37,788 bases of DNA from assembly GCA_019115455.1 (NCBI GenBank), contig DXDN01000023.1:1-37788 (forward strand), read 5' to 3'. Origin of the DNA: Candidatus Eubacterium faecigallinarum. GTDB lineage: Bacteria > Bacillota > Clostridia > Oscillospirales > Acutalibacteraceae. A model generated the notes under the pieces. That model saw nothing but the letters and a program-made list of their open reading frames with translations, was not told the DNA's origin and ran no database searches. This document shows positions 13,977 through 26,372 of this stretch, in pieces; within the stretch, counting starts at the first letter, position 1; each line of letters starts with the position of its first letter. Position numbers and translations under genes: made by a program.

Positions 13977-14011
13977 AAAAGCGACCTGTTTAATTTGAAC
14001 AGGTCGCTTTT
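13977..14011. terminator. Second, bidirectional terminator between pckG and the zinc-ribbon gene
   Basis: GCGACCTGTT (13981-13990) pairs with AACAGGTCGC (13998-14007), with an A-run before and a T-run after, so it can end transcription from both sides. Confidence 0.8.
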
Positions 14012-14029: not shown

Positions 14030-14548
14030 CTATCCTACATATGAAAATGATTCAAATAACTGATCATAGGCAACGCCCATTACGGCGATAAGGGCTATGT
14101 AGCAGAAAACAATTAAAATCCACAGTACGATAGGAACGACAATGCCGGCAATGCACAGCTTTCTTGTGCTTTTTATACTGTGCTGCAAATCATAGCTGAC
14201 AGGAAAGGCAATGTTTATTTCGTTAATTTTAACAATACCGATTACTCCGAAAACAATTCCCAGCAGAGGAACGAAAAGACCTACAATAATGGCGATAATG
14301 CCCATGGTTTTAGCATTGTCGATTTTTGAGCGAATCATAAGCTCATACGCCTGGGAATTGTACTGTTGGGCAAAGGGGTTGTTTTGGACATTCATATAAC
14401 CGTATGGCTGACCGGCATTATTGGCGCCGTTATATTCAAACGGCTGCTGGTTATAGTTGGTTTGAACAGGCTCGCCGCAGTTATTGCAGTAATATGTTCC
14501 GTCAGGAATGTTGCTGCCGCATTTTCTGCAAATCATATTATCACTCAT
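14030..14548 (-). CDS. Zinc-ribbon membrane protein (DUF4190-like)
   Basis: A 172-residue protein. The N-terminus is a short zinc ribbon, 'MICRKCGSNIPDGTYYCNNCGEP' in two C-x2-C knuckles. It is followed by a Q/N/Y-rich low-complexity linker (about 28-68), then two hydrophobic helices: one at about 80-105 ('IIAIIVGLFVPLLGIVFGVIGI') and one at about 132-158 ('IAGIVVPIVLWILIVFCYIALI'). The helix pair with intervening small residues is typical of the DUF4190 group. It is probably anchored in the cytoplasmic membrane with the ribbon in the cytosol; function unknown. Its stop is backed by the bidirectional terminator at 13977-14011. Confidence 0.75.
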   Translation of the reverse strand: MSDNMICRKCGSNIPDGTYYCNNCGEPVQTNYNQQPFEYNGANNAGQPYGYMNVQNNPFAQQYNSQAYELMIRSKIDNAKTMGIIAIIVGLFVPLLGIVFGVIGIVKINEINIAFPVSYDLQHSIKSTRKLCIAGIVVPIVLWILIVFCYIALIAVMGVAYDQLFESFSYVG

Positions 14549-14680: not shown

Positions 14681-14720
14681 GCCCTACACGCACCATTAGT
14701 GTAGGGCAAATTTTTTGCCC
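14681..14720 (+). promoter_or_regulatory. Terminator/anti-terminator-like leader before the phage-derived cluster
   Basis: GCCCTACAC (14681-14689) pairs with GTGTAGGGC (14699-14707), followed by AAATTTTTT: a classic terminator. A second repeat, GGGCAAA (14704-14710) with TTTGCCC (14714-14720), uses part of the 3' arm of the first, so the two hairpins exclude each other. The nearest plus-strand gene upstream, pckG, already has its own terminators, so this hairpin more likely controls or insulates the downstream cluster. Confidence 0.6.
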
Positions 14721-14732
14721 TGCAAGTACGGT

Positions 14733-15083
14733 ATGGGAGATGATGATATTTCAAGAAAAAAGAAAATAAGCCGCAGGGATATAACCGACGGCTTAGGCAG
14801 GCTGGCGTTCGGAAATATTCAGGATTCCGTCAGGCTGCTTTACGAGTCCGAGGATAAGATACTTGAGGCTCTGCCCGAACTGAATTTATTTAATATTAGC
14901 GAAATAAAAAGGCAAAAGGGCGGAGGTACTGAAATCAGGTTTTTTGACAGGCTGAAAGCGTTGGAAAAGCTCGGAGAAATCACAGGAACTGAAGAAAAAC
15001 AGACTGCGCTGTCTTTTTATGACGCATTGGAAAAGAGTGCTGACAGAATCAGCAGACGGGAAACAGATGATATCCATGACTGA
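14733..15083 (+). CDS. Terminase small-subunit-like protein lacking an N-terminal DNA-binding domain
   Basis: A 116-residue protein whose 'RRDITDGLGRLAFGNIQDSVRLLY' and 'SEIKRQKGGGTEIRFFDRLKALEKLGEI' segments resemble the C-terminal (oligomerisation and terminase-binding) half of phage small terminases. The usual N-terminal helix-turn-helix of 50-60 residues is missing; only about 13 basic residues precede the matching part. It directly precedes and overlaps the large terminase gene, as small terminases do. The start is uncertain: ATG 14733 has a weak ribosome site, while an in-frame TTG at 14715 lies inside the leader hairpin. Gene transfer agent small terminases also lack specific DNA recognition, which would fit a non-selective packaging role, but that is inference. 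Confidence 0.6.
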   Translation: MGDDDISRKKKISRRDITDGLGRLAFGNIQDSVRLLYESEDKILEALPELNLFNISEIKRQKGGGTEIRFFDRLKALEKLGEITGTEEKQTALSFYDALEKSADRISRRETDDIHD

Positions 15084-16335
15084 GTTTACCCCCTTTTCAG
15101 CCAAGCAGCTTTTTGTTTTGAACTGGTGGTGCAGAAACAGCAGATACAGCGATAAAAACGGAATTATCTGCGACGGCGCTGTCAGAAGCGGAAAGACTGT
15201 TTGCATGAGCATATCATTTATTTGCTGGGCGTTTTACAATTTCAGCAACACGTCGTTCGCCATTTGCGGAAAGACGATTGCTTCTCTGAGACGGAATGTG
15301 ATAACGCCGCTGCTGCCTATTATCAGCGAACTGGGATTCAGCTGTGATTTTAAAATAAGCAGAAACTATCTGGAGATATCCAGGGACGGGCTGTCAAATC
15401 GTTTTTACCTTTTTGGAGGCAGGGACGAGTCCTCGGCGGCTCTTATTCAGGGGATGACGCTGGGAGGCGTTATGTTTGACGAGGCGGCTTTGATGCCGCG
15501 CTCATTTGTTGAGCAGGCGCTGGCAAGGTGTTCTCTTGAAAATTCCAAATACTTTTTTAACTGTAATCCGGAGCATCCGTATCACTGGTTTTACTTACAG
15601 TGGATAAAAAAGCACAGGGAGAAAAACGTGCTTTACGTTCATTTTACCATGGACGACAATCCGTCGCTGTCACAGGCAGTGAAAAACAGATACAAAAATC
15701 TGTATTCAGGAGCGTTTTACGAGCGATTCATTGAGGGCAGATGGGTGGCGGCAGACGGACTGGTGTATCCTATGTTTGACCACAGCCGCCATGTCAAACA
15801 GTGCGCATCAAAAGTGCATGAATATTATCTGTCCTGTGATTACGGTACGGTCAATCCTTTTTCTCTCGGCCTTTGGGGCAGAGGGGATGACGGATGGTAC
15901 CGGCTTGACGAATATTATCATTCCAGCCGTGACAAGGGCGTTCAGCTAACCGACGAGGAATATTATCAGGCGCTGCTGAAGCTGGCGGGAGACAGGAAAA
16001 TTAAGGCGCTTATTATTGACCCGTCCGCCGCATCTTTTATCCAGACGGTTAAAAGGCACAACCAATTTGCGGTGATAAAGGCGGACAACGACGTGCTAAG
16101 CGGAATTAACAGAGTGTGCCAGGCGCTTAAAGACGAGGAGATATTTATTTCTCCGAACTGCGCGGACGCTATCAGGGAATTTTCTGTTTACCGATGGGAT
16201 AACGGTATAAAAAAGGATGCCCCGAAAAAAGAAAACGATCATGCAATGGACGATATAAGATACTTTGTCTCCACAGTGTTTTATAAGCAGCAAAAGGCAG
16301 AAAGTTTTGCGTCCGTTGCAATAGAAAGGAAATAA
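15067..16335 (+). CDS. Terminase large subunit
   Basis: A 422-residue packaging ATPase/nuclease. ATPase: Walker A 'GAVRSGKTV' (K43), 'CGKTIASLRRNVI', Walker B 'GGVMFDEAAL' (D138, E139) and the coupling motif 'FNCNPEHPYHWFY'. Nuclease (RNase H-like): acidic residues D258 in 'LSCDYGTVNPFS', D318 in 'LIIDPSAAS' and D395 in 'HAMDDIRYF'. All catalytic residues I can name are present, so the enzyme looks functional. Length and motif spacing match the Terminase_6/XtmB (PBSX-like) type. The ATG at 15067 follows GACGGG and overlaps the preceding gene by 17 nt; ATG 15076 is an alternative. It would dock on the portal and translocate DNA into the prohead. Confidence 0.93.
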   Translation: MISMTEFTPFSAKQLFVLNWWCRNSRYSDKNGIICDGAVRSGKTVCMSISFICWAFYNFSNTSFAICGKTIASLRRNVITPLLPIISELGFSCDFKISRNYLEISRDGLSNRFYLFGGRDESSAALIQGMTLGGVMFDEAALMPRSFVEQALARCSLENSKYFFNCNPEHPYHWFYLQWIKKHREKNVLYVHFTMDDNPSLSQAVKNRYKNLYSGAFYERFIEGRWVAADGLVYPMFDHSRHVKQCASKVHEYYLSCDYGTVNPFSLGLWGRGDDGWYRLDEYYHSSRDKGVQLTDEEYYQALLKLAGDRKIKALIIDPSAASFIQTVKRHNQFAVIKADNDVLSGINRVCQALKDEEIFISPNCADAIREFSVYRWDNGIKKDAPKKENDHAMDDIRYFVSTVFYKQQKAESFASVAIERK

Positions 16336-16337
16336 TT

Positions 16338-17462
16338 TTGGGCTTATTAAATTTCAGAAAAAACAAAAATGACACGGTGGGAGCCTCAGCGGTACAGACT
16401 TCTTCTGCCTCAAGGCATCCGTATTACAGGCTTTCATCTTATATGCCGCTCAACGGCAAATCGAGAGTATATGCCCAGGTGAGGCAGGCGGTTCCGATTA
16501 TTGACGCGGCAGTTAACAAGATAATTAGGCTCACCGACGGCTTTAGGTTTGAAACGGGCGACGAGATGCTCGATATAAGAATGAACGATTATTTTAACAA
16601 TATAAATGTCGGCGGAAATCAGAGAGGGATTAGCGCGTTTATATCGAATTATCTGAGCCAGCTTTTAACCTTCGGTACTGCTGTAGGTGAAGTTGTGCTC
16701 TCAAATAACGGCATATATGCTCTTTATAACAGCGATTTGGCTGACCTGGAGCTTAAAAGGGCAGCAAACGGAATTGACGTGGAATTTTATAACTACAATG
16801 AAAAAATTCCCAATCCGTCCCTGGTGCTTTATTCCGTGCTTAATCCAAAGCCCGGCGATCTTTGCGGCACAAGTATTCTTGAGGGACTGCCGTTTATCAG
16901 CGATATTCTTATGAAGATTTATCACACGGTGGGAGAGAACTGGGAGCACGCCGGCAATGTCAGGTATGCCGTTATATGCAAACCATCCGCCGACGCCGAC
17001 GGCACAGACGCTCAGAGCAGAGCCAACACCATTGCCCAGGCGTGGAAGGACGCCATGGATTCCAAAAGCGTTAAGGATTTTGTCGCTGTGGGCGATGTGA
17101 GCGTTCAGGTAATAGGTGCTGACAACGTATGCCTTAACAGTGAAATACCGGTAAGGCAGATGCTCGAACAGATAGTCGCTAAGCTGGGTCTGCCGCCGTT
17201 TATGCTGGGGATTAACTGGTCGTCAACGGAGCGAATGAGCACCCAGCAGGCAGATATCCTTACCACGGAGCTTAAGGCGTACCGCCGGGTGCTCACTCCC
17301 GTGATAAGCAAGATCGGAAACATGTATCTGGCGCTTGCAGGTGAAAACTGCCGTGCTGAAGTGGTATGGGAGGACATCACGCTTCAGGATGAGTGCGACG
17401 GCGCCAAGGCAAAGCTGTACAACGCTCAGGCAGAAAAAATAGAAAGGGAAATTTCAGTGTAA
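16338..17462 (+). CDS. Phage portal protein
   Basis: A 374-residue portal-like protein, somewhat short for the SPP1/PBSX-like families. It carries 'RVYAQVRQAVPIIDAAVNKIIRLTDG' near the N-terminus (wing start), a central 'DLCGTSILEGLPFISDIL' segment and 'LEQIVAKLGLPPFMLGINWSSTERMSTQQADILTTEL' (the conserved portal signature and crown/stem region). It forms the dodecameric DNA entry ring. The start codon is TTG, 7 nt after GAAAGGA, and only 2 nt after the terminase stop, so coupling is tight. The C-terminus ends early ('KAKLYNAQAEKIEREISV') without the long tail seen in many portals. Confidence 0.85.
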   Translation: MGLLNFRKNKNDTVGASAVQTSSASRHPYYRLSSYMPLNGKSRVYAQVRQAVPIIDAAVNKIIRLTDGFRFETGDEMLDIRMNDYFNNINVGGNQRGISAFISNYLSQLLTFGTAVGEVVLSNNGIYALYNSDLADLELKRAANGIDVEFYNYNEKIPNPSLVLYSVLNPKPGDLCGTSILEGLPFISDILMKIYHTVGENWEHAGNVRYAVICKPSADADGTDAQSRANTIAQAWKDAMDSKSVKDFVAVGDVSVQVIGADNVCLNSEIPVRQMLEQIVAKLGLPPFMLGINWSSTERMSTQQADILTTELKAYRRVLTPVISKIGNMYLALAGENCRAEVVWEDITLQDECDGAKAKLYNAQAEKIEREISV

Positions 17463-17482
17463 ATCGCTGAAAAGGTGTGTTT

Positions 17483-18451
17483 ATGACCATTGGATATGTA
17501 GAAAAAGAATTCCTGCCCCAGGAGAGCGATATGCAGAAGATAAACACCTTTACAAGACACGAATTTTCTGCAGAGAGCCTTTACGTCTTCAGCGCTGCGC
17601 TTTGCAATAACGATGTGGACAGAGATTATGAAAAATTTTCTGTTGAGGCACTTATGCAGCTTAAAGAAAAATTCTTGGGCAAAACAGGTATCTGCGACCA
17701 CTCCATGAAAGCCGCTGACCAGAAAGCCAGAATTTTTGACACCTGGGTAGAAAAGGTGGATGGCAAAAAAACGGCTGACGGCGAAGACTTTTATCAGCTT
17801 AAGGCTAAGGCTTATATGGTTAGAAATCGTGAAAACGAGGAGTTTATAACCGAGATAGAGGCAGGAATAAAAAAGGAAATCTCTGTTTCCTGCTCAATGG
17901 GAAGCAGTGTGTGCTCAATATGCGGCAATGACAGAAAAAACGGTCGCTGCGAGCATATTCCTGGCAGGACGTATAACGGCAAAATCGCATTCACCGTGCT
18001 TTCGGATGCTTTGGATGCGTATGAATTCAGCTTCGTGGCGGTTCCGGCTCAGCGTGAGGCGGGAGTCACTAAATCATTAAAAAATATGAAAGGAAAAAAC
18101 TGTATGACGCAAATTATAAAATCACTTAAGGACTGCGGCGCTGAAATTGTTCTCACCCGGGAACAGGCGGACGAGATAGTAAAAAGCTATGAAAATCTTA
18201 TGGATGAAGCCGAACTGGGCAGGGAATACAAAAAAAGTCTGGCAGGCGAGGTTGTCAGCCTCTGCGCCAAGGCTATGCCCGATATGGACCTTAATGTGTT
18301 CAGCGGCGTGGCGCAGGTGATGACCACCAAAGAACTTCTTTCATTTAAAAAGGCGTTTGAAAAATCAGATAAAAAAGAGGGCGCACTTTTGCAGCTCAGA
18401 CCTGAAAAGCATGGTAATGCTGCCGCCGCTCATTCAAATTACAAAATTTAG
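17483..18451 (+). CDS. Prohead protease/scaffold-like protein with a Cys-His cluster
   Basis: A 322-residue protein between portal and capsid genes. The N-terminal about 200 residues resemble phage prohead maturation proteases: 'LYVFSAALCNNDVDRDYEKFS', 'GKTGICDHSM' (candidate catalytic His), 'ISVSCSMGSSVC' (candidate catalytic Ser) and 'EFSFVAVPAQREAGVTKSL'. Between them lies 'CSICGNDRKNGRCEHI', which could bind a zinc ion. The C-terminal about 110 residues are helical and charged ('EIVKSYENLMDEAELGREYKK') like a fused scaffold. It would assemble with the capsid protein and be digested. ATG 17483 lies 5 nt after AAAGGTG; GTG 17477 is less likely. Confidence 0.75.
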   Translation: MTIGYVEKEFLPQESDMQKINTFTRHEFSAESLYVFSAALCNNDVDRDYEKFSVEALMQLKEKFLGKTGICDHSMKAADQKARIFDTWVEKVDGKKTADGEDFYQLKAKAYMVRNRENEEFITEIEAGIKKEISVSCSMGSSVCSICGNDRKNGRCEHIPGRTYNGKIAFTVLSDALDAYEFSFVAVPAQREAGVTKSLKNMKGKNCMTQIIKSLKDCGAEIVLTREQADEIVKSYENLMDEAELGREYKKSLAGEVVSLCAKAMPDMDLNVFSGVAQVMTTKELLSFKKAFEKSDKKEGALLQLRPEKHGNAAAAHSNYKI

Positions 18452-18462
18452 GAGGAAAAATA

Positions 18463-19461
18463 ATGGCATTTGATAACATTAAACTTGAAAAAGGACTGTA
18501 CACAACAGGTAAATCATTCACCAAGGCACTTGAGGAGCTTGACCCGTCAGAAAACTACAAGGGCACTTCGCTTGAAGGACTTGACGCTTACGAAAGACAG
18601 CTTAAAAGATTTGACATTAAGGTGTCCGGCTCAAATTCCGACCCGGTGTCAAAATTCTTTGCCACAACTGATTCAGCTGCGCTTTTCCCGGAATACATTT
18701 CAAGAGCAGTTCAGCTTGGCATGACTGACAATAACAAGGTGGAAAGAATCGTTGCCACAACCACAGAGATTGACAGTATGGACTACAGGTCTGTCTCAAC
18801 AGGCAATCTTGCAGCAGATTTTGCGCTTTCGGAAGTTGACGAGGGCGAGGAGCTTCCTGAGCTTACAATCAAACTCAACGATAATCTTACTACCCTCAAA
18901 AAGCACGGCAAAATGCTCGTGTCATCATATGAGGCAATTAAATTCCAGAAACTTGACCTGTTTACCGCTGTGCTCAAGCATATCGGTACATACATCGCCA
19001 ACAGTGAGTTTGAGCAGGCGGTTGCTGCAATTGTTGCACATGAAAATATAAAATCTTTTGCAATTCAGAGCTCAAATCTTGATTTTGTTGATATTGTCAA
19101 TGTTTGGGCAACCTTTGCTCCGTACAACATGACAAGTCTTGTTATGAATTCAAATTCTCTTGCAAGACTTCTTCTCATGAATGAATTCAGGGATTCATAT
19201 GCCGGTCTTGATTCACATGCTACCGGTAATATGATTACTCCTTTCGGCGCTGAGCTCTTTACGTCTAAGGATTTGCCAAACAATACAGTTTTGGCATTTG
19301 ACAAAAACTGTACGCTTGAAAAGGTACAGGCAGGCGGAGTTCTGACGGAATTTGACAAGCTTATAGACCGCCAGCTTGAAAGAGCAACAATTTCAACAAT
19401 TGTCGGATTCTCGACAATTTACGGCGACGCGGCGACTGTGTTAAAGCCAGCCGGAGAGTAA
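18463..19461 (+). CDS. Major capsid protein (HK97-fold type)
   Basis: A 332-residue protein with an excellent ribosome site (AGGAGG, 8 nt before the ATG), as expected for the most abundant head protein. An N-terminal helical arm (about 1-60) is followed by 'DPVSKFFATTDSAALFPEYISRAVQLGM', a segment typical of HK97-like capsids. The P-domain/spine region follows, then 'LVMNSNSLARLLLMNEFRDSY' and 'FTSKDLPNNTVLAFDKNCTLE', the C-terminal A-domain pattern. No premature stop is present. It follows the protease gene by 11 nt. I infer a T-number-forming icosahedral shell, but particle size cannot be predicted. Confidence 0.82.
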   Translation: MAFDNIKLEKGLYTTGKSFTKALEELDPSENYKGTSLEGLDAYERQLKRFDIKVSGSNSDPVSKFFATTDSAALFPEYISRAVQLGMTDNNKVERIVATTTEIDSMDYRSVSTGNLAADFALSEVDEGEELPELTIKLNDNLTTLKKHGKMLVSSYEAIKFQKLDLFTAVLKHIGTYIANSEFEQAVAAIVAHENIKSFAIQSSNLDFVDIVNVWATFAPYNMTSLVMNSNSLARLLLMNEFRDSYAGLDSHATGNMITPFGAELFTSKDLPNNTVLAFDKNCTLEKVQAGGVLTEFDKLIDRQLERATISTIVGFSTIYGDAATVLKPAGE

Positions 19462-19472
19462 CGGCTTATCAT

Positions 19473-19826
19473 ATGACTGATTATACATTGATTAAACAGG
19501 AGCTTTTAAGGCTCCTGGGTTGCAGTGAGGACGAAGTTGAGCAGTATATGCCGTATATGGAAAATGCCGCGGCGAGCATTATGTCTACATTAAAAAATCA
19601 TGAAGATGAAAACGACTCACGCATTGTGAATTTGTGTGCAGTGACTGCGTATTATCAGATAGTGCTGTCACGTCAGGACGATGGCATAGTTTCCTTTAAG
19701 GCGGGGGACGTGTCCTATACCAGGGAAAACAATCAGGCGGAAAATGCGTATAAGCTGCTCAAAGCGGCGCAGAAGGACTGCGCCGCCCTTGTAAACGATA
19801 GCGGTTTCGCTTTTAAGGCGGTGTGA
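19473..19826 (+). CDS. Head-tail connector-like protein (gp6 type)
   Basis: A 117-residue, largely helical, acidic protein right after the capsid gene: 'LLRLLGCSEDEVEQYMPYMENAAASIM' then 'NLCAVTAYYQIVLSRQDDGIVSFKAGDVSYTREN'. The size, position and the helical core with a beta-hairpin between helices fit the gp6/YqbG group of adaptor proteins that bind under the portal ring. No good ribosome site is visible before the ATG, which lies 12 nt after the capsid stop, so it may depend on coupling. The assignment rests on position as much as on sequence. Confidence 0.6.
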   Translation: MTDYTLIKQELLRLLGCSEDEVEQYMPYMENAAASIMSTLKNHEDENDSRIVNLCAVTAYYQIVLSRQDDGIVSFKAGDVSYTRENNQAENAYKLLKAAQKDCAALVNDSGFAFKAV

Positions 19827-19827
19827 C

Positions 19828-20181
19828 GTGAAAAAAAGCATAATTAAAAATCAGATAGATATGACGGGCACCACTGTATATATCAAGGACGGCGACTGGA
19901 CCTCCGTGCCTTTTAAAGCATGTGTTTCGCATCTTTGGAGAAAAAAGTCAACGGCATTTGAGCCTGATTATGAAATGCTCGGAAAATCTCTGATTGAATA
20001 TTATCTTTATATCGGTCCTTATGACCATGATATTACTATGCTGTCAGATGACGCGATTTTTATGCTGGGTGACACTGCATATGAGCTCAGGTATGCCGAC
20101 GCTGTGAAATTTAACGGCGAGACAATCTACTTTACCGGTATATTAAAAAAGATAAAGGGGAATGAGTTCAATGAGAATTGA
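19828..20181 (+). CDS. Head-completion/stopper-like protein
   Basis: A 117-residue beta-rich protein starting with GTG, 1 nt after the previous stop. The pattern 'TTVYIKDGDWTSVPFKACVSHLWRKKS', 'YYLYIGPYDHDITMLSDDAIFMLGDTAYELRYADAVKFNGETIYFTGILKK' resembles stopper or minor capsid proteins of the YqbH/XkdH type that close the connector after packaging. It has the usual length and position of that gene. Its end overlaps the next gene by about 11 nt. No catalytic role is expected. Confidence 0.55.
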   Translation: MKKSIIKNQIDMTGTTVYIKDGDWTSVPFKACVSHLWRKKSTAFEPDYEMLGKSLIEYYLYIGPYDHDITMLSDDAIFMLGDTAYELRYADAVKFNGETIYFTGILKKIKGNEFNEN

Positions 20182-20566
20182 TACTATTTTGGACGCCGTT
20201 GAAGAACGCTTAAAGGCGGACGAGCTTTTCTCTAACATTAATATTATAAAAGCGTATCCCTGTAGTGCCGCTCCGAGCAGACTCTCACGTGAAACACTGG
20301 CGCTGGGACTGGACGAGATAAAGGTTACACCCGCAAGCGTTGACGATATTAACAAAACAGGGGAAATCTCTGTTTTTGCCGATATATTTATTCCGCTAAA
20401 AAATCCCAGCTCAAGAGCATTTGAAATACTGACGGCACTTTGCTCGTGTATGGACGATTTTAATGTTTTATCAGTAAGCGCCCAGCGCATTGCAGTTGAC
20501 AGGGACACCGCATCTTATGTTCTTAAAACTGTTTTTACTTTCAGAGATGAGATTGAGGTGATTTGA
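20171..20566 (+). CDS. Tail-terminator/head-tail joining-like protein
   Basis: A 131-residue protein of mixed alpha/beta composition: N-terminal helix 'MRIDTILDAVEERLKADELF', then strands, and a C-terminal 'AVDRDTASYVLKTVFTFRDEIEVI'. Size, position (third after the capsid) and pattern fit the tail terminator/tail completion class (XkdJ/gpU-like) that caps a tail tube at the head. This is noteworthy because the tube gene itself is missing from the cluster. ATG 20171 is preferred because AAAGGGG lies 10 nt upstream; ATG 20162 is too close to it. Confidence 0.5.
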   Translation: MRIDTILDAVEERLKADELFSNINIIKAYPCSAAPSRLSRETLALGLDEIKVTPASVDDINKTGEISVFADIFIPLKNPSSRAFEILTALCSCMDDFNVLSVSAQRIAVDRDTASYVLKTVFTFRDEIEVI

Positions 20567-20656
20567 ATGAATGAAGAAATTGATATGGCTAAGCAGATAA
20601 GCGAGATTATTCGCCTTGACCAAAAAAGGTATGACAAGAGCGGCGGTGAAGTCTGA
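20567..20656 (+). CDS. 29-residue peptide at the site of the missing tail module
   Basis: A short frame, 'MNEEIDMAKQISEIIRLDQK' then 'RYDKSGGEV', with a good ribosome site (GAGGTG, 7 nt before ATG). It sits exactly between the tail-terminator-like gene (no gap) and the LysM baseplate gene, which starts at the base after its stop. In related PBSX/Mu-like gene orders this is where sheath, tube, chaperone and tape-measure genes lie. The peptide is helical and charged; it could be a genuine small protein, a scar of a deleted gene, or only a translational relay keeping ribosomes on the message. Confidence 0.5.
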   Translation: MNEEIDMAKQISEIIRLDQKRYDKSGGEV

Positions 20657-21163
20657 GTGAAAATGCAATTTAAGGATTTTGTCTTTCCGACTAATCCGTC
20701 GAAGATAGAAATTTCGTCATCGTCAAGCTGTGCCGCCGACGATATTTATGACGGTAGCAACGTAGTCAGCAACATATCGACAAAGCCGGTAACTGTTACA
20801 GGAAGCGGAGAGTTTTATGGGGAAAGAGCCGCCGAGTACTGCGCTGTATTAAGCAATATGTTGCGTGACAGAACATGGGGATGGCTGTTCACCCCCGGCG
20901 CTGCTGCTCTCAAAGCTTATTTTACTGATTTTTCTTATGAGAGGGACTGTACAAAAAACAGCTTTGCCTACACTTTCAAATTTGTTGAAAACTGCTCCGA
21001 CGTAAAAGCAAAAAGGGAGATTACCAAAGTGGTTGCCGAAAGCGGTGAGAACGCTTTTGACATAGCCAACAAATGCTCGGTGACGGTGGATGATATTATG
21101 AAGCTCAACGACCTGAAAACACCTTTTGATATCAAAGAGGGAAGCGAAGTGACGGTAGGATGA
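20657..21163 (+). CDS. LysM-containing baseplate protein (XkdP-like)
   Basis: A 168-residue protein. The N-terminal about 115 residues ('FKDFVFPTNPSKIEISSSSS', 'KPVTVTGSGEFYG', 'TWGWLFTPGAAALKAYFTDFSYERD') match the pattern of XkdP/gp53-like baseplate proteins. The C-terminal about 45 residues ('GENAFDIANKCSVTVDDIMKLNDLKTPFDIKEGSEVTVG') form a LysM domain. In contractile-tailed particles this protein joins the tube end to the hub. The GTG start follows directly on the stop of the 29-codon frame, and its stop overlaps the next ATG (ATGA). Confidence 0.75.
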   Translation: MKMQFKDFVFPTNPSKIEISSSSSCAADDIYDGSNVVSNISTKPVTVTGSGEFYGERAAEYCAVLSNMLRDRTWGWLFTPGAAALKAYFTDFSYERDCTKNSFAYTFKFVENCSDVKAKREITKVVAESGENAFDIANKCSVTVDDIMKLNDLKTPFDIKEGSEVTVG

Positions 21164-22113
21164 AACTAATACTTGAAGCGGTAGACAAAACCGAATACAG
21201 TTTTGAGCAGGTGCTGGAGCTGGATTTTACACAGACGGTGGGAGTCCCCTGTGACAGCATCAGCGTAAGGCTGAAAAATGCGAATATGCCTAAGGAAATA
21301 GCAGGAGTAAAACTCTGTTTTAACGAAGAGATAGTTTTTAACGGATACTGCGACAACCAGAAAGTTAGCTGCGGTGACGACGGGTTTGAAACTTATATTT
21401 ACGCACGCTCAGGCGCTGCTGTTCTTGTGGATAATGAGGCGGAGCCTTTTACGTATAATATGCCTACTGCAAAACAGCTTTGCTATGTTTTTGCCAAGCC
21501 GCTGGGATTTACTGATGATTTGCCGGTTATTGAAAGCAGAGAAAAATACGAGATTCAGAAAGGAACGACTTGCTACGGAGCCATAAGCGGCTTCGTAGCA
21601 ATGGCGGCAGGTAAAAACATCTGCGTTATGCCTGACAACTGCATCAAAATCCTTGAAAAAAGCGATGATATAAAAGAACTCCCCTCACACAGATTAATCA
21701 GCGCTTGCGCTGTAATAAACAGAAGCGAACCGCTTACGGAAATCAGATTTAAAAAGGATTCCGCACTGGCAGGATATAAGACCAGAATGAGGTCAAGTGT
21801 AAATGAAACATACGGTCTTACTGAAAGAATAAAGTATGTGAATTTATCGTCGCTTCCCCAATGGCAGCGTGATAATACAATACTTCAGACGCTGAAAAAT
21901 TCATATGAGGATTATCGCATGCTGGAGGTAACTGTAGCAGGATATGTAAGCGAGCCGCTGCTCCAGAGATACTCTTATCATTCCCGTCTGGGAGATTATG
22001 AGGATTATGTTATGACGGAAAAGGAGTATATTGTCGGAGCGAATGGCGAATTCACACGGCTGGTGCTGAAAAAAGAAATTGACATAAAGGAGATAACATA
22101 TGTGGCTCAGTAA
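21160..22113 (+). CDS. Baseplate hub protein (XkdQ/gpD-like)
   Basis: A 317-residue protein with the tandem barrel pattern of late-control gpD/XkdQ hub proteins: 'FTQTVGVPCDSISVRLKNANMP' and 'VKLCFNEEIVFNGYCDNQKV' (first barrel), 'GFETYIYARSGAAVLVDNEAEP', then 'GAISGFVAMAAGKNICVMPDNCIKI', and a C-terminal 'LEVTVAGYVSEPLLQRYSYHSRLGDYEDYVMTEKEYIVG' closing barrel. It would form the trimer at the distal end of a tail, holding the spike. The start overlaps the LysM gene by 4 nt and the end overlaps the spike gene by 14 nt. Confidence 0.75.
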   Translation: MKLILEAVDKTEYSFEQVLELDFTQTVGVPCDSISVRLKNANMPKEIAGVKLCFNEEIVFNGYCDNQKVSCGDDGFETYIYARSGAAVLVDNEAEPFTYNMPTAKQLCYVFAKPLGFTDDLPVIESREKYEIQKGTTCYGAISGFVAMAAGKNICVMPDNCIKILEKSDDIKELPSHRLISACAVINRSEPLTEIRFKKDSALAGYKTRMRSSVNETYGLTERIKYVNLSSLPQWQRDNTILQTLKNSYEDYRMLEVTVAGYVSEPLLQRYSYHSRLGDYEDYVMTEKEYIVGANGEFTRLVLKKEIDIKEITYVAQ

Positions 22114-22456
22114 AAAAATGGTTTCTAAGGAAAGCACACCGGCGGTGCAGAGCGGCATAAGCACTCTTAACAGCAACGGCAAGGTGGAAGCGATATCCAC
22201 GGGAGCGGAAAGGGACATACGATTTTATTCGGCATACGGGTACAGCTTTTCTATTCCGTCAGGTGAGGAAATTTTAATGTCCCAAAGCAGCGGACAGCAA
22301 ACGGCATTCGGCACACTTATGAAAAACAGCGATATCGAAACCGGAGAGATAATGATAACCTCTCAGTCAGGAGCATACATCCACTTGAAAAACAATGGTT
22401 CGGTTGTGATAAACGGGCTGGAAATAGACAAAAACGGAGTGATAGTCAATGAATAA
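22100..22456 (+). CDS. Baseplate spike/assembly protein V (Mu gp45-like)
   Basis: A 118-residue beta-rich protein. The block 'GEEILMSQSSGQQTAFGTLMKNSDIETGEIMITSQSGAYIHLKNNGSVVINGLEIDKNG' resembles the C-terminal beta-helix region of Mu gp45/P2 gpV spikes, where repeats like 'SGAYIHLKNNGSVVING' wrap a trimeric needle. No metal-binding H-x-H tip is visible. It is somewhat shorter than typical (150-200), lacking much of the N-terminal OB-fold, so it may be reduced. The ATG follows AAGGAGATA within the hub gene. Confidence 0.65.
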   Translation: MWLSKKMVSKESTPAVQSGISTLNSNGKVEAISTGAERDIRFYSAYGYSFSIPSGEEILMSQSSGQQTAFGTLMKNSDIETGEIMITSQSGAYIHLKNNGSVVINGLEIDKNGVIVNE

Positions 22457-22736
22457 ACCTGAAAGTATTATAAATTCCATATTGACTGACTGTACTGCCG
22501 CTTTGGTTTGCCCCAGAGGTGAATTTTATCCCGACAAGGACTACGGTAGCCGTATCAGAAAAGAAATACAGGAAATTGATCTTCAAACTTTGCTCAGTTA
22601 TTCCAGGCAGGCATTAAGCGACATGGACGGCATTTTTGTGATATCGGCGGAAAAGGACGATGAAAAAATAATATTTAATATCAGCATAAATGATGATGAA
22701 AGGCAGGTGTTTGTTCCCGTTGAACAGGACTTATGA
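22449..22736 (+). CDS. Baseplate wedge protein (Mu gp46/XkdS-like)
   Basis: A 95-residue protein whose 'LVCPRGEFYPDKDYGSRI' segment is characteristic of the gp25/gp46/XkdS group, where a conserved 'GE...DYGS' turn initiates sheath contact. The rest ('DLQTLLSYSRQALSDMDGIFVISAEKDDEKIIFNISINDDERQVFVPV') matches the family's helix-strand pattern. In phages this wedge protein nucleates polymerisation of the contractile sheath, yet no sheath gene is present nearby. Start overlaps the spike gene by 8 nt. Confidence 0.7.
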   Translation: MNKPESIINSILTDCTAALVCPRGEFYPDKDYGSRIRKEIQEIDLQTLLSYSRQALSDMDGIFVISAEKDDEKIIFNISINDDERQVFVPVEQDL

Positions 22737-23790
22737 ACAGATAGTTGACGAAATGCTCAAGGCTTATTTTAATGAATCAGGACAAAAGCCGGATAAAAAT
22801 TCCCTTGAAATGAAAAGAATTGAGGCGGTCGCCAGCGAACTTTACGGGCTGTCGTGCTACGGCGATTTTATTTTTAAGCAGTCTTTTGTGCAGACGGCCA
22901 CGGGCGAATACCTTGACAGACACGGAGAGATAAGGGACTGTGCCAGAAAAGAAGCGTTCTGTGCAACAGGTTGGCTTGATTTTTATCTTGATGAGCCAAT
23001 AGAGGAAGATGTAGAAATTCCCCTGGGGACGATATGCTCTGTAAAAGATCAACCGTATCTGCAATTTGTTACTGATGAAAAGGGCGTTATAACAGCCGGA
23101 GAGACCAGCGTCAGTTTGGCCGCGTCGGCGATGTATCCCGGAAGTGATTATAACGTCAAGAAAGGCGAAGTCACAGTTATGGTGAACGCACCGGTCAAGG
23201 TATCCGGTGTTGTTAATAAAATAAGGTTTGAATACGGTGCGGATGCGGAAAATGATAATGTTTACAGAAAAAGAATAATGAGCAATTACAATGTTGCTCA
23301 AAACGGAGTCAATACGACTTCACTGGAGAATATTGTGCTTGACTTGGATTTTATTAAAGACTGCTATATTCCTGAGGCAATTTCACCCGGATATATGAAT
23401 GTAGCTATTTTGACCCATGACGGCTACATCACTACACAGGAAAGACTCGTTTTGGAAGATTCTATAGGAATACATAAAATCACAGGTGCAGAATTTAGTT
23501 TATCGATGGCGACTCCAAAAAATTATTCTATAACTGTTGATATCTATATTAGAGCAGGATTTGATCATGAAGAGGTAAAAGCAAAGGTTGAAGATATCGT
23601 TAAGGAAGTTAATGAAACTTGCAGAATCGGAAGATCTCTGTCAATTACTTTGATATCAAAACGGCTGTCATTGCTTGAGGAATTAACAGATTTTTATCTA
23701 TATTGCGATGAGGCTAACGGTGAAATTATCTCATGCCGTTATGATGAGTTCCTTGATCTGGAAGAGTTGAGGGTGAACTGTTTTGAATAA
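22720..23790 (+). CDS. Baseplate J-like protein (Mu gp47/XkdT-like)
   Basis: A protein of about 356 residues with the order expected of baseplate J proteins: N-terminal 'YEQIVDEMLKAYFNE', 'QTATGEYLDRHGEIRDCARKEA', 'IPLGTICSVKDQPYLQFVTDE', 'SVSLAASAMYPGSDYNVKKGEV', 'YRKRIMSNYN' and a C-terminal 'NYSITVDIYIRAGFDHEEVKAKVEDIV'. It makes the wedge frame of a contractile baseplate. The start is uncertain: TTG 22720 fits the family start and has GGCAGG about 12 nt upstream; ATG 22690 gives ten extra residues without a ribosome site. Its end overlaps the next gene by 8 nt. Confidence 0.8.
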   Translation: MNRTYEQIVDEMLKAYFNESGQKPDKNSLEMKRIEAVASELYGLSCYGDFIFKQSFVQTATGEYLDRHGEIRDCARKEAFCATGWLDFYLDEPIEEDVEIPLGTICSVKDQPYLQFVTDEKGVITAGETSVSLAASAMYPGSDYNVKKGEVTVMVNAPVKVSGVVNKIRFEYGADAENDNVYRKRIMSNYNVAQNGVNTTSLENIVLDLDFIKDCYIPEAISPGYMNVAILTHDGYITTQERLVLEDSIGIHKITGAEFSLSMATPKNYSITVDIYIRAGFDHEEVKAKVEDIVKEVNETCRIGRSLSITLISKRLSLLEELTDFYLYCDEANGEIISCRYDEFLDLEELRVNCFE

Positions 23791-24346
23791 CGAACAGATA
23801 TTTGAAAGACTTTCAGCCCTTTATGACAAACTTAATATAGATCATACGGCAGGTTCGCAGGAAAATGCACAGTTAAAGGCTTTCAGCAGCGGAATATCCC
23901 TTTTGCAAGAGCAATTTGACGAGTATTTTAAGCAAATATTTCCCGATACAGCCGAGGGCTTGGGACTGGCTTATTACTGCGAACTGCTTGACGTTGACTA
24001 TTCTCTTGAGGAGCAGGAAAGAAGAGATGAGATTATATACAGGTTGTCGGAGGACTACAGAAAGCTGGATTGCAGTTTGCTTAAAGAGCAAATTGAGGGA
24101 CTCGGCGAAGGCTTTTCCTATAGCTGCAACAATTTTACCATAACTATTGACGGCTCAATCAGCGGTAAGGAATATTTGCTGAAGAAAATTAACTCGATAA
24201 TTGAAAGGTTTATTTCGCCGTTTACTGTGGTGAATTTTGCCGGCGACGGAGCTGACTTTGACTACTGGGATTCCCTGGATTATTTTTTTGAAGATTATGA
24301 TTCCTTGGGGCTCAGATTTGAGCTTTTGGATACATTAAAATTATAG
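23783..24346 (+). CDS. Baseplate/tail protein (Mu gp48/XkdU, DUF2313-like)
   Basis: A 187-residue protein beginning with TTG 8 nt after GAGGGTGA. It has 'ENAQLKAFSSGISLLQEQFDEYFKQIFPDTAEGLGLAYYCELLDVD' followed by 'RRDEIIYRLSEDYRKLDCSLLKEQIE', the pattern of DUF2313/XkdU proteins: four-helix N-terminal part, then a small beta domain ('FSYSCNNFTITIDGSISGKEYLLKKINSIIERFISPFTVVNF'). It attaches tail fibres to the J-type wedge protein. Position directly after the J gene supports this. Confidence 0.7.
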   Translation: MNNEQIFERLSALYDKLNIDHTAGSQENAQLKAFSSGISLLQEQFDEYFKQIFPDTAEGLGLAYYCELLDVDYSLEEQERRDEIIYRLSEDYRKLDCSLLKEQIEGLGEGFSYSCNNFTITIDGSISGKEYLLKKINSIIERFISPFTVVNFAGDGADFDYWDSLDYFFEDYDSLGLRFELLDTLKL

Positions 24347-24361
24347 CTGAAAGGAGAAACA

Positions 24362-24844
24362 ATGAGCAGTACTAATAAGACGAAAAATTTGCAGCTTAAC
24401 AGCTGGATAGGTTCTGACAAGCCTAAAAGAGAGGATTTTAACGCTGATAACAGTATAATAGACAAGGCAATAACAGATCATGTTGAAGATAATACAGTAC
24501 ACATTACCTCCGAGGAAAGAGGCATTTGGAATAATTATATGTTTACCGGTACTTATTACGGAAACGGAACCACTGAAAGAGTAATTGAGACTGAGTGCCC
24601 GTTCGAAGCAAGAATAGGGTTTGTTTTCGCAAACAGCAGACCAACATCAATTGCCAGATTTTCCGACGGCAAAAAGAACAATTATTTCGGCGTTTTCGGA
24701 TTTATGGCTAATTCTCTGGGATTAAAGCTTGACAGCGGTGGCAAAAATTTTACCGTGGAGCAGAGCGCATATGCTATGACCTCAGGAGAATATGCCAACT
24801 ATAATGAATCAGGTGTAACATATCATTACATGATGTTCAGATAA
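24362..24844 (+). CDS. Tail-fibre-like protein, last gene of the cluster
   Basis: A 160-residue protein with an N-terminal 'KTKNLQLNSWIGSDKPKREDFNADNSIIDKAITDHVED', the attachment segment common at the start of Firmicute phage fibres. A short helical hinge ('HITSEERGIWNNY') follows, then a C-terminal beta-rich domain (about residues 60-160) ending 'YHYMMFR'. The C-terminal domain probably recognises a surface ligand, but I do not know its family. It is very short for a fibre. AAAGGAG precedes the ATG and a terminator starts 17 nt after the stop. No chaperone, holin or lysin follows. Confidence 0.6.
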   Translation: MSSTNKTKNLQLNSWIGSDKPKREDFNADNSIIDKAITDHVEDNTVHITSEERGIWNNYMFTGTYYGNGTTERVIETECPFEARIGFVFANSRPTSIARFSDGKKNNYFGVFGFMANSLGLKLDSGGKNFTVEQSAYAMTSGEYANYNESGVTYHYMMFR

Positions 24845-24861
24845 AATATAACAGATTACAG

Positions 24862-24897
24862 AGTACCCCGAATTTGACAGTTCGGGGTACTTTTTTC
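24862..24897 (+). terminator. Terminator ending the phage-derived cluster
   Basis: AGTACCCCGAA (24862-24872) pairs with TTCGGGGTACT (24881-24891), followed by TTTTTC. It separates the cluster from the ECF/coaX operon. Confidence 0.9.
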
Positions 24898-25029: not shown

Positions 25030-25608
25030 ATGAAAACAAACACAAAGAAAATCGCCGGGACCGGTATACTTACCGCGGTAGTGGTGGTGCTGCAATTACT
25101 GGGCAGCTTTATAAAATTCGGTCCTTTTTCAATCTCGCTGGTGCTTATACCAATAGTAGTCGGAGCGGCGCTGTATGGTAAGGCGGCAGGTGCGTGGCTG
25201 GGAGCGGCATTCGGAGTAGCCGTGCTGGCTTCGGGAGACGCGTCGATGTTTATGGCAGTTAATCCGGCAGGAACGGTGATTACTGTTATGGCAAAGGGAC
25301 TTCTTGCAGGACTTCTTGCAGGTCTTGTTTACAGCCTTGTTGAAAAGAAAAACAAAATTGTTGCAACCATAGTTGCGGCGATTGTTTGTCCTGTGGTTAA
25401 TACAGGAGTGTTCCTGGTAGGATGTTCGCTGTTTTTTATGGACACATTAAAGGAATGGGCACAGGGTGCAGGCTTCGGTACATCGGTAGCGACATATATG
25501 ATAGTCGGTCTTGTGGGACTTAATTTCGTGTTTGAGCTTGTTATAAATATCGTGCTTTCGCCGGTAATTGTTAAGCTTGTAAGACTCGGGAAGAAGGAAA
25601 ATAAATGA
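25030..25608 (+). CDS. ECF transporter S component, probably pantothenate-specific
   Basis: A 192-residue membrane protein with six hydrophobic helices (about residues 9-30, 35-58, 62-88, 90-106, 112-138, 150-182). It has the S-component features of energy-coupling-factor vitamin importers: a short basic N-terminus ('KTNTKKIAGTGILTAVVVVLQLLG'), which provides small-residue packing with the shared T subunit, and 'MAVNPAGTVITVMAKGLLAGLLAGLVYS'. It captures substrate and delivers it through the shared EcfA/A'/T module, which is not in the window. The ATGA overlap with coaX makes pantothenate the likely ligand (PanT-like), although specificity is inferred from context only. AGAAAGGAAAA precedes the ATG. 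Confidence 0.82.
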   Translation: MKTNTKKIAGTGILTAVVVVLQLLGSFIKFGPFSISLVLIPIVVGAALYGKAAGAWLGAAFGVAVLASGDASMFMAVNPAGTVITVMAKGLLAGLLAGLVYSLVEKKNKIVATIVAAIVCPVVNTGVFLVGCSLFFMDTLKEWAQGAGFGTSVATYMIVGLVGLNFVFELVINIVLSPVIVKLVRLGKKENK

Positions 25609-26372
25609 TTTTAGCTATTGATATTGGAAATACAAATATAGTGCTCGGATTTCTTGAGGGCGAGGAACTGATTCACGAATGCCGCCTTACAACTGCGGCA
25701 GACGCTTCCGCCGATGAATACGCAATACAGTTTAAGAGCATTTTTGAAATATTTAAAATTAATGTTGAGGATATAGAGGGCAGCGTGCTGTCTTCTGTCG
25801 TGCCGCCTCTTAACAGAACTATTCCCAAGGCAATTATGATGATTACGGGCAAAAAGCCCGTTGTTGTAGGACCCGGTGTAAAAACAGGGCTTAACATTAA
25901 AATCAATAATCCTGCGGAATTGGGAGCCGATATGGTTGCCGGCGCAGTGGCAAGCGTGGCTAAATACCCGTGCCCACAGATAGTTTTTGATTTGGGTACT
26001 GCTACCACCGCTTCAGTTATAGACAGAAACGGCTGTTTCCTTGGCGGTTCAATTATCTGCGGAGTAAAGACAGGGCTTAATGCGCTTTCGCAATCTGCTG
26101 CTCAGCTTCCTCAGATAGAGATAGTAGCTCCGCCCACAGCAATATGCACAAATACTATAGATTCAATGCGCAGCGGCACTGTGTTCGGTACGGCGGCAAT
26201 GCTGGACGGAATGGTAAAAAGATTTGAATCCGAGCTGGGCGAGAAAGCTACCGTAATAGTTACAGGCGGTATCGGAGGCGTAATTGCCGGATACTGCGAA
26301 AGCGAAGTTATTGTTGATAAGCGTCTGCTTATTGACGGACTGCGTATTATATATGATAAAAATAAGTGCTGA
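25605..26372 (+). CDS. coaX: Type III pantothenate kinase
   Basis: A 255-residue ASKHA-fold enzyme phosphorylating pantothenate, the first committed step of coenzyme A synthesis. Motifs: 'MILAIDIGNTNIVLG' (phosphate-1, with the catalytic Asp), 'ELGADMVAGAVA' (substrate loop with the conserved Asp), 'IVFDLGTATTASVI' (phosphate-2) and 'VIVTGGIGGVIA' near the end. Length matches the family. It does not carry the type II extension. The start overlaps the ECF S component stop by 4 nt, so uptake and phosphorylation of pantothenate are co-expressed. Confidence 0.97.
   Translation: MILAIDIGNTNIVLGFLEGEELIHECRLTTAADASADEYAIQFKSIFEIFKINVEDIEGSVLSSVVPPLNRTIPKAIMMITGKKPVVVGPGVKTGLNIKINNPAELGADMVAGAVASVAKYPCPQIVFDLGTATTASVIDRNGCFLGGSIICGVKTGLNALSQSAAQLPQIEIVAPPTAICTNTIDSMRSGTVFGTAAMLDGMVKRFESELGEKATVIVTGGIGGVIAGYCESEVIVDKRLLIDGLRIIYDKNKC

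Follow-up and report, generated by a model that had tools for sequence, protein, structure and literature searches.

A phage-derived head-and-baseplate gene cluster without a tail tube in Candidatus Eubacterium faecigallinarum and its relatives: a candidate tail-less particle akin to gene transfer agents

The window analyzed here (37,788 nucleotides of contig DXDN01000023.1, assembly GCA_019115455.1, from Candidatus Eubacterium faecigallinarum of the Acutalibacteraceae) carries a cluster of phage-type genes at 14715-24844, which consists of 15 ordinary plus-strand open reading frames (ORFs) and one further ORF of 29 residues at 20567-20656. Their frames are intact and often overlap, from the small terminase subunit (TerS) to a fiber-like gene at 24362-24844, in agreement with an initial annotation that had counted sixteen plus-strand genes. 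It had also proposed that the set is kept for a role other than phage propagation, such as a tail-less, baseplate-capped particle similar to a gene transfer agent (GTA)—the reading that is best supported by the comparison with relatives described below.

Genes of the cluster

Pfam and PHROGs profiles back the assignment of TerS, the large terminase subunit (TerL), portal, capsid, LysM protein, baseplate hub, baseplate J, and the Mu gp48-like protein. Hereby, the Pfam scores of TerS, portal, and the Mu gp48-like protein lie under the curated cut-offs, and the identity of the portal relies on phrog_30703. The names c1, c2, protease/scaffold, XkdR-like, and XkdS-like are given by position only, and the three neck genes c1, c2, and c3 matched no credible Pfam family. 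Counts in the following list refer to the 104 related loci before deduplication; HTH stands for helix-turn-helix.

14715-15083, plus strand: TerS without N-terminal HTH; possible starts ATG 14733 and TTG 14715; PF03592 just under the curated cut-off
15019-16335, plus strand: TerL, start uncertain at about 15064-15076; PF03237 3.5e-18, phrog_2 1.9e-52
16338-17462, plus strand: portal; phrog_30703 3e-124
17477-18451, plus strand: putative prohead protease/scaffold, by position; phrog_16951 (function unknown) 6e-88; in 103/104 loci
18463-19461, plus strand: major capsid protein; PF25209 6e-13, phrog_3922 2e-78
19473-19826, plus strand: c1, putative neck adaptor, by position; in 101/104 loci
19828-20181, plus strand: c2, putative neck stopper, by position; in 94/104 loci
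20162-20566, plus strand: c3, tail terminator as judged from a predicted structure
20567-20656, plus strand: 29-residue micro-ORF, putative tape-measure stub, by position, motif, codon entropies, and substitution rates
20657-21163, plus strand: XkdP-like LysM protein (tube/baseplate initiator); PF01476 1.3e-6, phrog_380 8e-6, and gene order
21160-22113, plus strand: XkdQ-like baseplate hub; phrog_177 2.5e-6
22100-22456, plus strand: XkdR-like hub/spike, by position; phrog_25991 (unknown) 8.7e-8
22449-22736, plus strand: XkdS/gp25-like baseplate protein, by position; no Pfam match; in 45/104 loci
22690-23790, plus strand: baseplate J (XkdT); PF04865 1.3e-30
23783-24346, plus strand: XkdU or Mu gp48-like baseplate protein; PF10076 1.5e-6, under the curated cut-off
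24362-24844, plus strand: fiber or receptor-binding-type protein, weakly supported; phrog_33092 2e-5, phrog_27373 6e-4; class D relatives (see below) have this domain joined to their terminator
24860-24893, plus strand: terminator-like hairpin 3' of the cluster, 15 pairs followed by a T run
25030-26372, plus strand: host flank with an energy-coupling factor (ECF) transporter component and type III pantothenate kinase (coaX); PF12822, PF03309; conserved neighbor

For c3, an AlphaFold model built from 38 sequences (predicted local distance difference test, pLDDT, 87.9) has its best Foldseek matches in the lambda tail cap gpU (1.5e-6), the diffocin collar, and the Mu terminator, which identifies the product, at the level of a model, as a tail terminator. 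The Walker and nuclease acidic residues of TerL show no variation among the 10 sequences aligned, that of the window included; the initial annotation had recognized these ATPase and nuclease residues, with its numbering shifted by one.

The 15 cluster proteins matched no integrase, repressor, or replication family in the Pfam and PHROGs scans, and no holin-like match was seen among them. Phage structural and packaging genes without recognizable replication, integration, and control genes are what a GTA would be expected to display. Concerning lysis genes, which the initial annotation had listed as absent, the LysM protein does match phrog_380, a family labeled endolysin (8e-6). The XkdP proteins of phages phiCD27 and BalMu-1, which occupy the same place, bear this label too, and the protein is hence read as XkdP-like. 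PADLOC returned no match for the six proteins given, and neither did a PDB sequence search with the fiber protein. In the genome itself (1.71 Mb, 98.4% complete), a TerL of this type occurs once.

Relatives and the stepwise loss of the tail

Exactly one capsid homologue each is present in 112 of 200 sampled genomes of the family of the window (f1), its own included. These carriers span 79 of 135 genera and comprise 100 of the 158 complete genomes, their capsids are—apart from the own one—43-62% identical, and an internal stop occurs in 2 of the 112 genes. Across the order, sampled from genomes at least 90% complete, the capsid is found in 101 of 395 genomes: 51 of 60 in f1, 28 in family f12, 20 in f22, and one each in f6 and f13; fragments only are present in G485 and G536. 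A scan of GTDB contigs confirmed at least 557 relatives among 599 candidates, and the best 80 of the confirmed ones were kept for locus analysis. Caproiciproducens faecalis (L127) and Faecalispora are among these 80, their genera being assigned by NCBI to the Acutalibacteraceae and Oscillospiraceae, respectively. L127 has the capsid of locus L046 from the f1 genome G025, and f1 is referred to here as Acutalibacteraceae-type. The loci of two cultured relatives, C. faecalis (L127) and Faecalispora sporosphaeroides (L131), are of the form with a tube.

Some records that hold the cluster bear unexpected titles. Six are virome records, which were not used as evidence for packaging: the one checked in detail, MT835508.1 (L053, 46.7 kb, GenBank "Bacteriophage sp."), is host chromosome around a head-only cluster. 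Nine of ten flanking proteins match cellular families, including rpoA and SecY, and an anaerobic ribonucleotide reductase is also present; the record may have been called phage owing to the cluster. JAMPEQ010000003.1 (L064), titled "Bacteroides sp.", carries the capsid of a genome of the window's genus (G021) and is probably mislabeled.

A sheath, a tube, and a full-length tape measure of the PBSX, contractile phage, or tailocin type were not recognized in the cluster. In the own genome, Phage_sheath_1 was not found by a search that matched 3 of 14 control genomes, and neither was the tube of this lineage, whose model matched 7 of 7 known tube-bearing genomes (four of which had supplied its seeds); a divergent tube or tape measure could escape these models. 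As far as the sheath and the lineage tube are concerned, the suggestion of the initial annotation that tail genes might lie elsewhere in the genome found no support. Its claim that sheath, tube, and tape measure are missing holds for the sheath, the lineage tube, and a full-length tape measure, whereas a conserved micro-ORF occupies the tape-measure position.

Among relatives, the tail appears in several states of reduction. The scored set comprises the window and L031-L133—104 loci, or 95 once eight duplicates and a single locus lacking the capsid ORF had been removed. Its class counts are not to be taken as frequencies, as 20 loci were hand-chosen among the 112 carriers and 80 are the most window-like, and they describe a graded series: sheath and tube together with a short tape gene (class A, 2 of 95 loci); a tube without sheath (class B, 15, and one more on a cut contig); the tail-less form with a baseplate only (class C, 29, window included); a terminator fused to a fiber domain without baseplate (class D, 24); and the head only (class E, 15), with nine loci on cut contigs. 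In all 24 class D loci, a single ORF is recognized by the terminator model as well as by the fiber model. In the eight listed with E-values, these are 7.9e-35 or better for the fiber and 2.4e-11 or better for the terminator, with models trained on the same loci.

The sheath calls rest on Pfam matches (PF04984 8e-13, PF17482 4.5e-12) and on similarity to sheath proteins annotated in Bacillus phage G and SuMu. Fusions of the tube occur with c2 (four loci) and with c3 (two loci). For the c2-tube fusion of Caproiciproducens, the best tail-tube structure match of an AlphaFold-type model (pLDDT 88.1) is the neck/tail of phage 812 (E 7.4e-5), and the phiCD508 tail, the R4C tail tube, and the monocin tube match as well, over about 125 of 227 residues; alignment with free tubes places the tube part in the C-terminal half. 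In f12, of which 28 genomes matched, sheath, tube, and baseplate genes are present in all seven loci fetched. The loci fetched from f22 are more diverse: six have head genes and a hub without sheath or tube, L215 has sheath and tube, L214 a tube, and L213 neither. Two distant f22 loci of genus g250 (L201 and L202, capsid E about 1e-37) have only the protease-like and capsid genes recognized.

Some loci have further peculiarities. In many relatives, an extra gene of about 114 residues, absent from the window, separates the protease-like gene from that of the capsid (in L042 at 9124-9468, oriented); all five loci L046-L050 carry a gene of 416-438 residues downstream of the fiber gene; and TerL of L065 (oriented) lies in three pieces on a metagenome-assembled contig, a frameshift or misassembly.

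The micro-ORF is where the tape measure would be expected. Phages phiCD27 and BalMu-1 encode, one after the other, a sheath, a tube, XkdN, a tape measure of 1429 and 1441 residues, respectively, and XkdP. The ORF 5' of the LysM gene measures 96-229 residues in 11 sheath-bearing loci and 195 in a twelfth (L133), and the gap at this place is 51-172 bp in 40 of 43 class B and C loci with a LysM gene, the exceptions being L032 (325 bp), L048 (382 bp), and L050 (0 bp). ORFs in the gap of classes B and C mostly have 25-57 residues; longer values, up to 152, count from the earliest start available and extend into the preceding gene. A c3-LysM junction of 51-111 bp holding the micro-ORF is shared by 27 of 29 class C loci, and the same number keeps a motif like SEyiRLDskRYD, similar to the RDxRRYD in which most sheath-bearing forms end. 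Codon-position entropies of 0.90/0.48/1.44 over 15 codons and a ratio of nonsynonymous to synonymous substitution rates (dN/dS, omega) of 0.026-0.289 in five pairs together indicate that the micro-ORF is coding. It is probably a tape measure shrunk to a stub. As the motif was not seen at the C-termini of three of three proteins looked at (those of phiCD27, BalMu-1, and Roos), this identity is based on the place of the gene and the gradation in length rather than on homology to long tape measures.

Descent, selection, and the terminase

A FastTree phylogeny of TerL, portal, and capsid, rooted at the midpoint, covers 100 of 115 loci and gathers 22 of its 24 class C members plus one cut contig in a 23-member clade with support 1.0; the remaining two, L048 and L115, fall among class B. 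Parsimony requires four changes for sheath presence (eight or more in 500 shuffles) and three for baseplate presence (21 or more). Since sheath-bearing loci sit on several deep branches, loss of the tail is the simpler reading than gain on this midpoint-rooted tree.

As checks, the initial annotation had proposed a search of related genomes for the block at the same site and the calculation of dN/dS. A coaX and/or DUF1015 neighbor was found in 20 of 28 class C relatives, and four of the other eight have less than 8 kb of downstream sequence. In eight pairs of relatives, omega is at most 0.41 wherever computable—in the comparison of the window with L054, synonymous sites have reached saturation in 6 of 16 genes, and for one portal pair no value was obtained—and there is no neutral decay of the frames. 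For TerS, TerL, and portal, omega is 0.03-0.13 in the pairs that gave a value. Distances of particle genes correlate with those of the host protein TsaD, the one marker on which host co-divergence rests, with a Mantel rho of 0.58 among 31 genomes (0 of 9999 permutations as high) and of 0.47 among 21 genomes within f1 (1 of 9999). The cluster genes are under purifying selection and co-diverge with the host marker, in line with the long vertical inheritance expected of GTAs.

A TerS without a DNA-binding domain has been proposed as the mark of GTA terminases (PMC6854486). TerS of the window matches PF03592 at profile positions 55-133 of 141 only, relative L051 at 1-127, and the median number of residues before the TerS core is 6 in class C compared with about 60 and 75 in classes D and E. 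Among 97 loci with enough upstream sequence, an HTH is detected in 0 of 22 loci of class C, 20 of 20 of D, 14 of 15 of E, 2 of 2 of A, and 7 of 14 of B; it is found in 0 of 7 f12 loci (one near miss, E 0.003) and 2 of 6 hub-type f22 loci (two near misses). The model was built from six seeds of classes A, B, D, and E, all of which were also scored, and none of class C or f12, in which a divergent HTH could thus be missed. A TerS lacking its specific DNA-binding domain is therefore predicted for the clade of the window and not for classes D and E.

What the cluster might encode

We assign a probability of roughly 0.7 to the reading of the cluster as a domesticated phage locus, passed on vertically, whose most likely product is a tail-less GTA-like particle. 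What argues for this is the single copy, the site shared in most of the clade, purifying selection and co-divergence with a host marker, the set of packaging, capsid, neck, and baseplate genes, the absence of sheath, tube, and almost the entire tape measure, the graded series of tail loss, and the loss of the TerS HTH. In such a particle, TerL would fill small heads with host DNA without choice of sequence. Portal, c1, c2, and the c3 terminator ring would seat directly on the LysM initiator, the hub, the spike, and the J/gp48 wedges—with the 29-residue peptide as the remainder of the tape measure in the assembled particle. The LysM and fiber proteins might bind the cell wall of kin, and DNA would exit via neck and hub, with uptake maybe by competence proteins such as ComEC. 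As no holin was recognized in the cluster, release would proceed through host or unlinked genes.

Several observations weigh against the GTA-like reading. The capsid is lacking in 88 of 200 family genomes and in 58 of 158 complete ones, which makes the cluster dispensable or often lost, and one genome of the order sample (G418) has two copies. Four class C relatives—L048, L066, L069, and L115—have 9.3 kb or more of downstream sequence without coaX or DUF1015 neighbors. As the TerS HTH is retained in classes D and E, random packaging is not a given for the lineage as a whole. Apart from the XkdP-like LysM protein, the cluster has no recognized lysis gene. ComEC is found in 156 of 158 complete genomes, and a link to competence was discarded as support, as a near-universal gene is uninformative. 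Most of the data come from metagenome-assembled genomes, and particle, DNA content, and transfer are predictions from the genes.

A PBSX- or tailocin-like killing particle with only incidental DNA would account for the PBSX-like gene order and baseplate, and killing is not excluded for the GTA of Faecalibacterium (FpGTA) by its authors either (PMC12946183). We regard it as unlikely: without a sheath, there is no contraction-driven puncture, and 24 class D and 15 class E loci of the 95 have no baseplate at the locus—D/E baseplate genes elsewhere were not searched for—yet keep head and packaging genes, which argues for DNA packaging as the kept function. Less probable still is a compartment derived from the head for protein or other non-DNA cargo. 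The DNA content of the particle is a prediction, which leaves room for this idea, but TerS, TerL, and portal are all retained at the low omega given above, and the motor and nuclease residues are kept in 10 of 10 sequences. Capsid-forming phage-inducible chromosomal islands (PICIs) carry head and packaging genes without a tail, and a satellite of this kind, using the tail of a helper phage, would likewise bring along a terminase, a capsid, and connectors, a set that the head-only class E resembles. This origin is improbable for a cluster that differs from such islands by the absence of recognized integrase, replication, and regulator genes among the proteins scanned, a site shared in most of the clade, co-divergence with a host marker, and a baseplate of its own. 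A recently deleted prophage bound to decay, the simple alternative raised by the initial annotation, would leave just a head and a baseplate without tail, but is rejected for the clade by its shared architecture and mostly shared site, the common c3-LysM junction, low omega, and intact frames, and no examined relative in this clade has a sheath or tube at the site, so that we attach next to no weight to it.

The GTA-like reading invites comparison with known systems. The order XkdP, XkdQ, XkdR-position gene, XkdS, and XkdT is the same in phiCD27, BalMu-1, and the window; the difference lies in front of XkdP, where the two phages have sheath, tube, XkdN, and a long tape measure and the window has 29 residues. 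RcGTA has a full siphovirus-like tail, whereas the tail of the window would derive from a contractile type and has been lost. With RcGTA and other alphaproteobacterial GTAs, the window shares a phage-derived cluster kept by the host and, as described for them in PMC6854486, a TerS without N-terminal DNA-binding domain.

The closest counterpart in kind is FpGTA, described by Borodovich et al. 2026 (PMC12946183). This report names FpGTA and PBSX as the two GTA-like systems of Gram-positive bacteria and gives, for FpGTA, 8.4-8.9 kb of packaged DNA, capsids of about 40 nm without identifiable tails, and baseplate, fiber, and lysis genes in a second operon (PMC12946183). It further reports random packaging in Ruminococcaceae, Oscillospiraceae, and Christensenellaceae and particle reads from CAG-115, Ruminococcus callidus, and Onthomonas, with no operon given for these three in the portion consulted; of four genomes named as searched, one—Faecalibacterium—had a strong operon candidate (PMC12946183). 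Both are GTA-like clusters of gut clostridia with TerL, portal, capsid, and a TerS without evident DNA-binding domain, the window being known from its genes alone; FpGTA has a scaffold, and the window a putative protease/scaffold by position. They differ in that the window has its baseplate in the same cluster, no recognized holin, and a much wider spread. Genus g217 we take to be Faecalibacterium, as the MAM protein matched only 2 of 74 genomes, both of g217 (a third g217 genome gave no match); a 16S probe was ambiguous, with 0 of 395 genomes and then, with up to one mismatch, 5 of 247 in five genera. With models of our lineage rather than the published FpGTA sequences, the capsid had no match in four g217 genomes, the portal none in three (a search without positive control), and TerL none in four save one marginal hit (E 0.008). 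The cluster thus resembles FpGTA in kind, and these searches lend no support to homology. No report of a GTA in Acutalibacteraceae was found among the open-access papers listed, subscription papers and most preprints being outside this scope.

Tentatively, and at somewhat less than even odds, the loci might represent one ancient GTA-like lineage over at least three families of the order, whose contractile tail was dismantled in stages—the tape measure was shortened from about 100-230 residues in sheath-bearing relatives to about 29, and the last stage joined a receptor-binding domain to the neck—and which could be the missing origin of part of the random packaging reported for DNA of Ruminococcaceae and Oscillospiraceae in fecal particles. 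If true, this would be a new GTA-like lineage of hundreds of loci (at least the 557 confirmed) in gut and rumen clostridia, and its graded forms would let one ask which parts of the tail are dispensable for a particle that delivers DNA and how short a tape measure can get. The published reads from particles of CAG-115, Ruminococcus callidus, and Onthomonas could be checked directly against the cluster.

The initial annotation had placed the genes between two terminators. A terminator-like hairpin is present 5' of the cluster at 13977-14011 in addition to the one at 24860-24893, but 22 such sites occur in the region compared with 10.5 expected, which makes single sites weak evidence. Upstream of the cluster, the minus strand encodes a zinc-ribbon membrane protein at 14030-14548, and near relatives carry homologues of 31-55% identity in the corresponding position.

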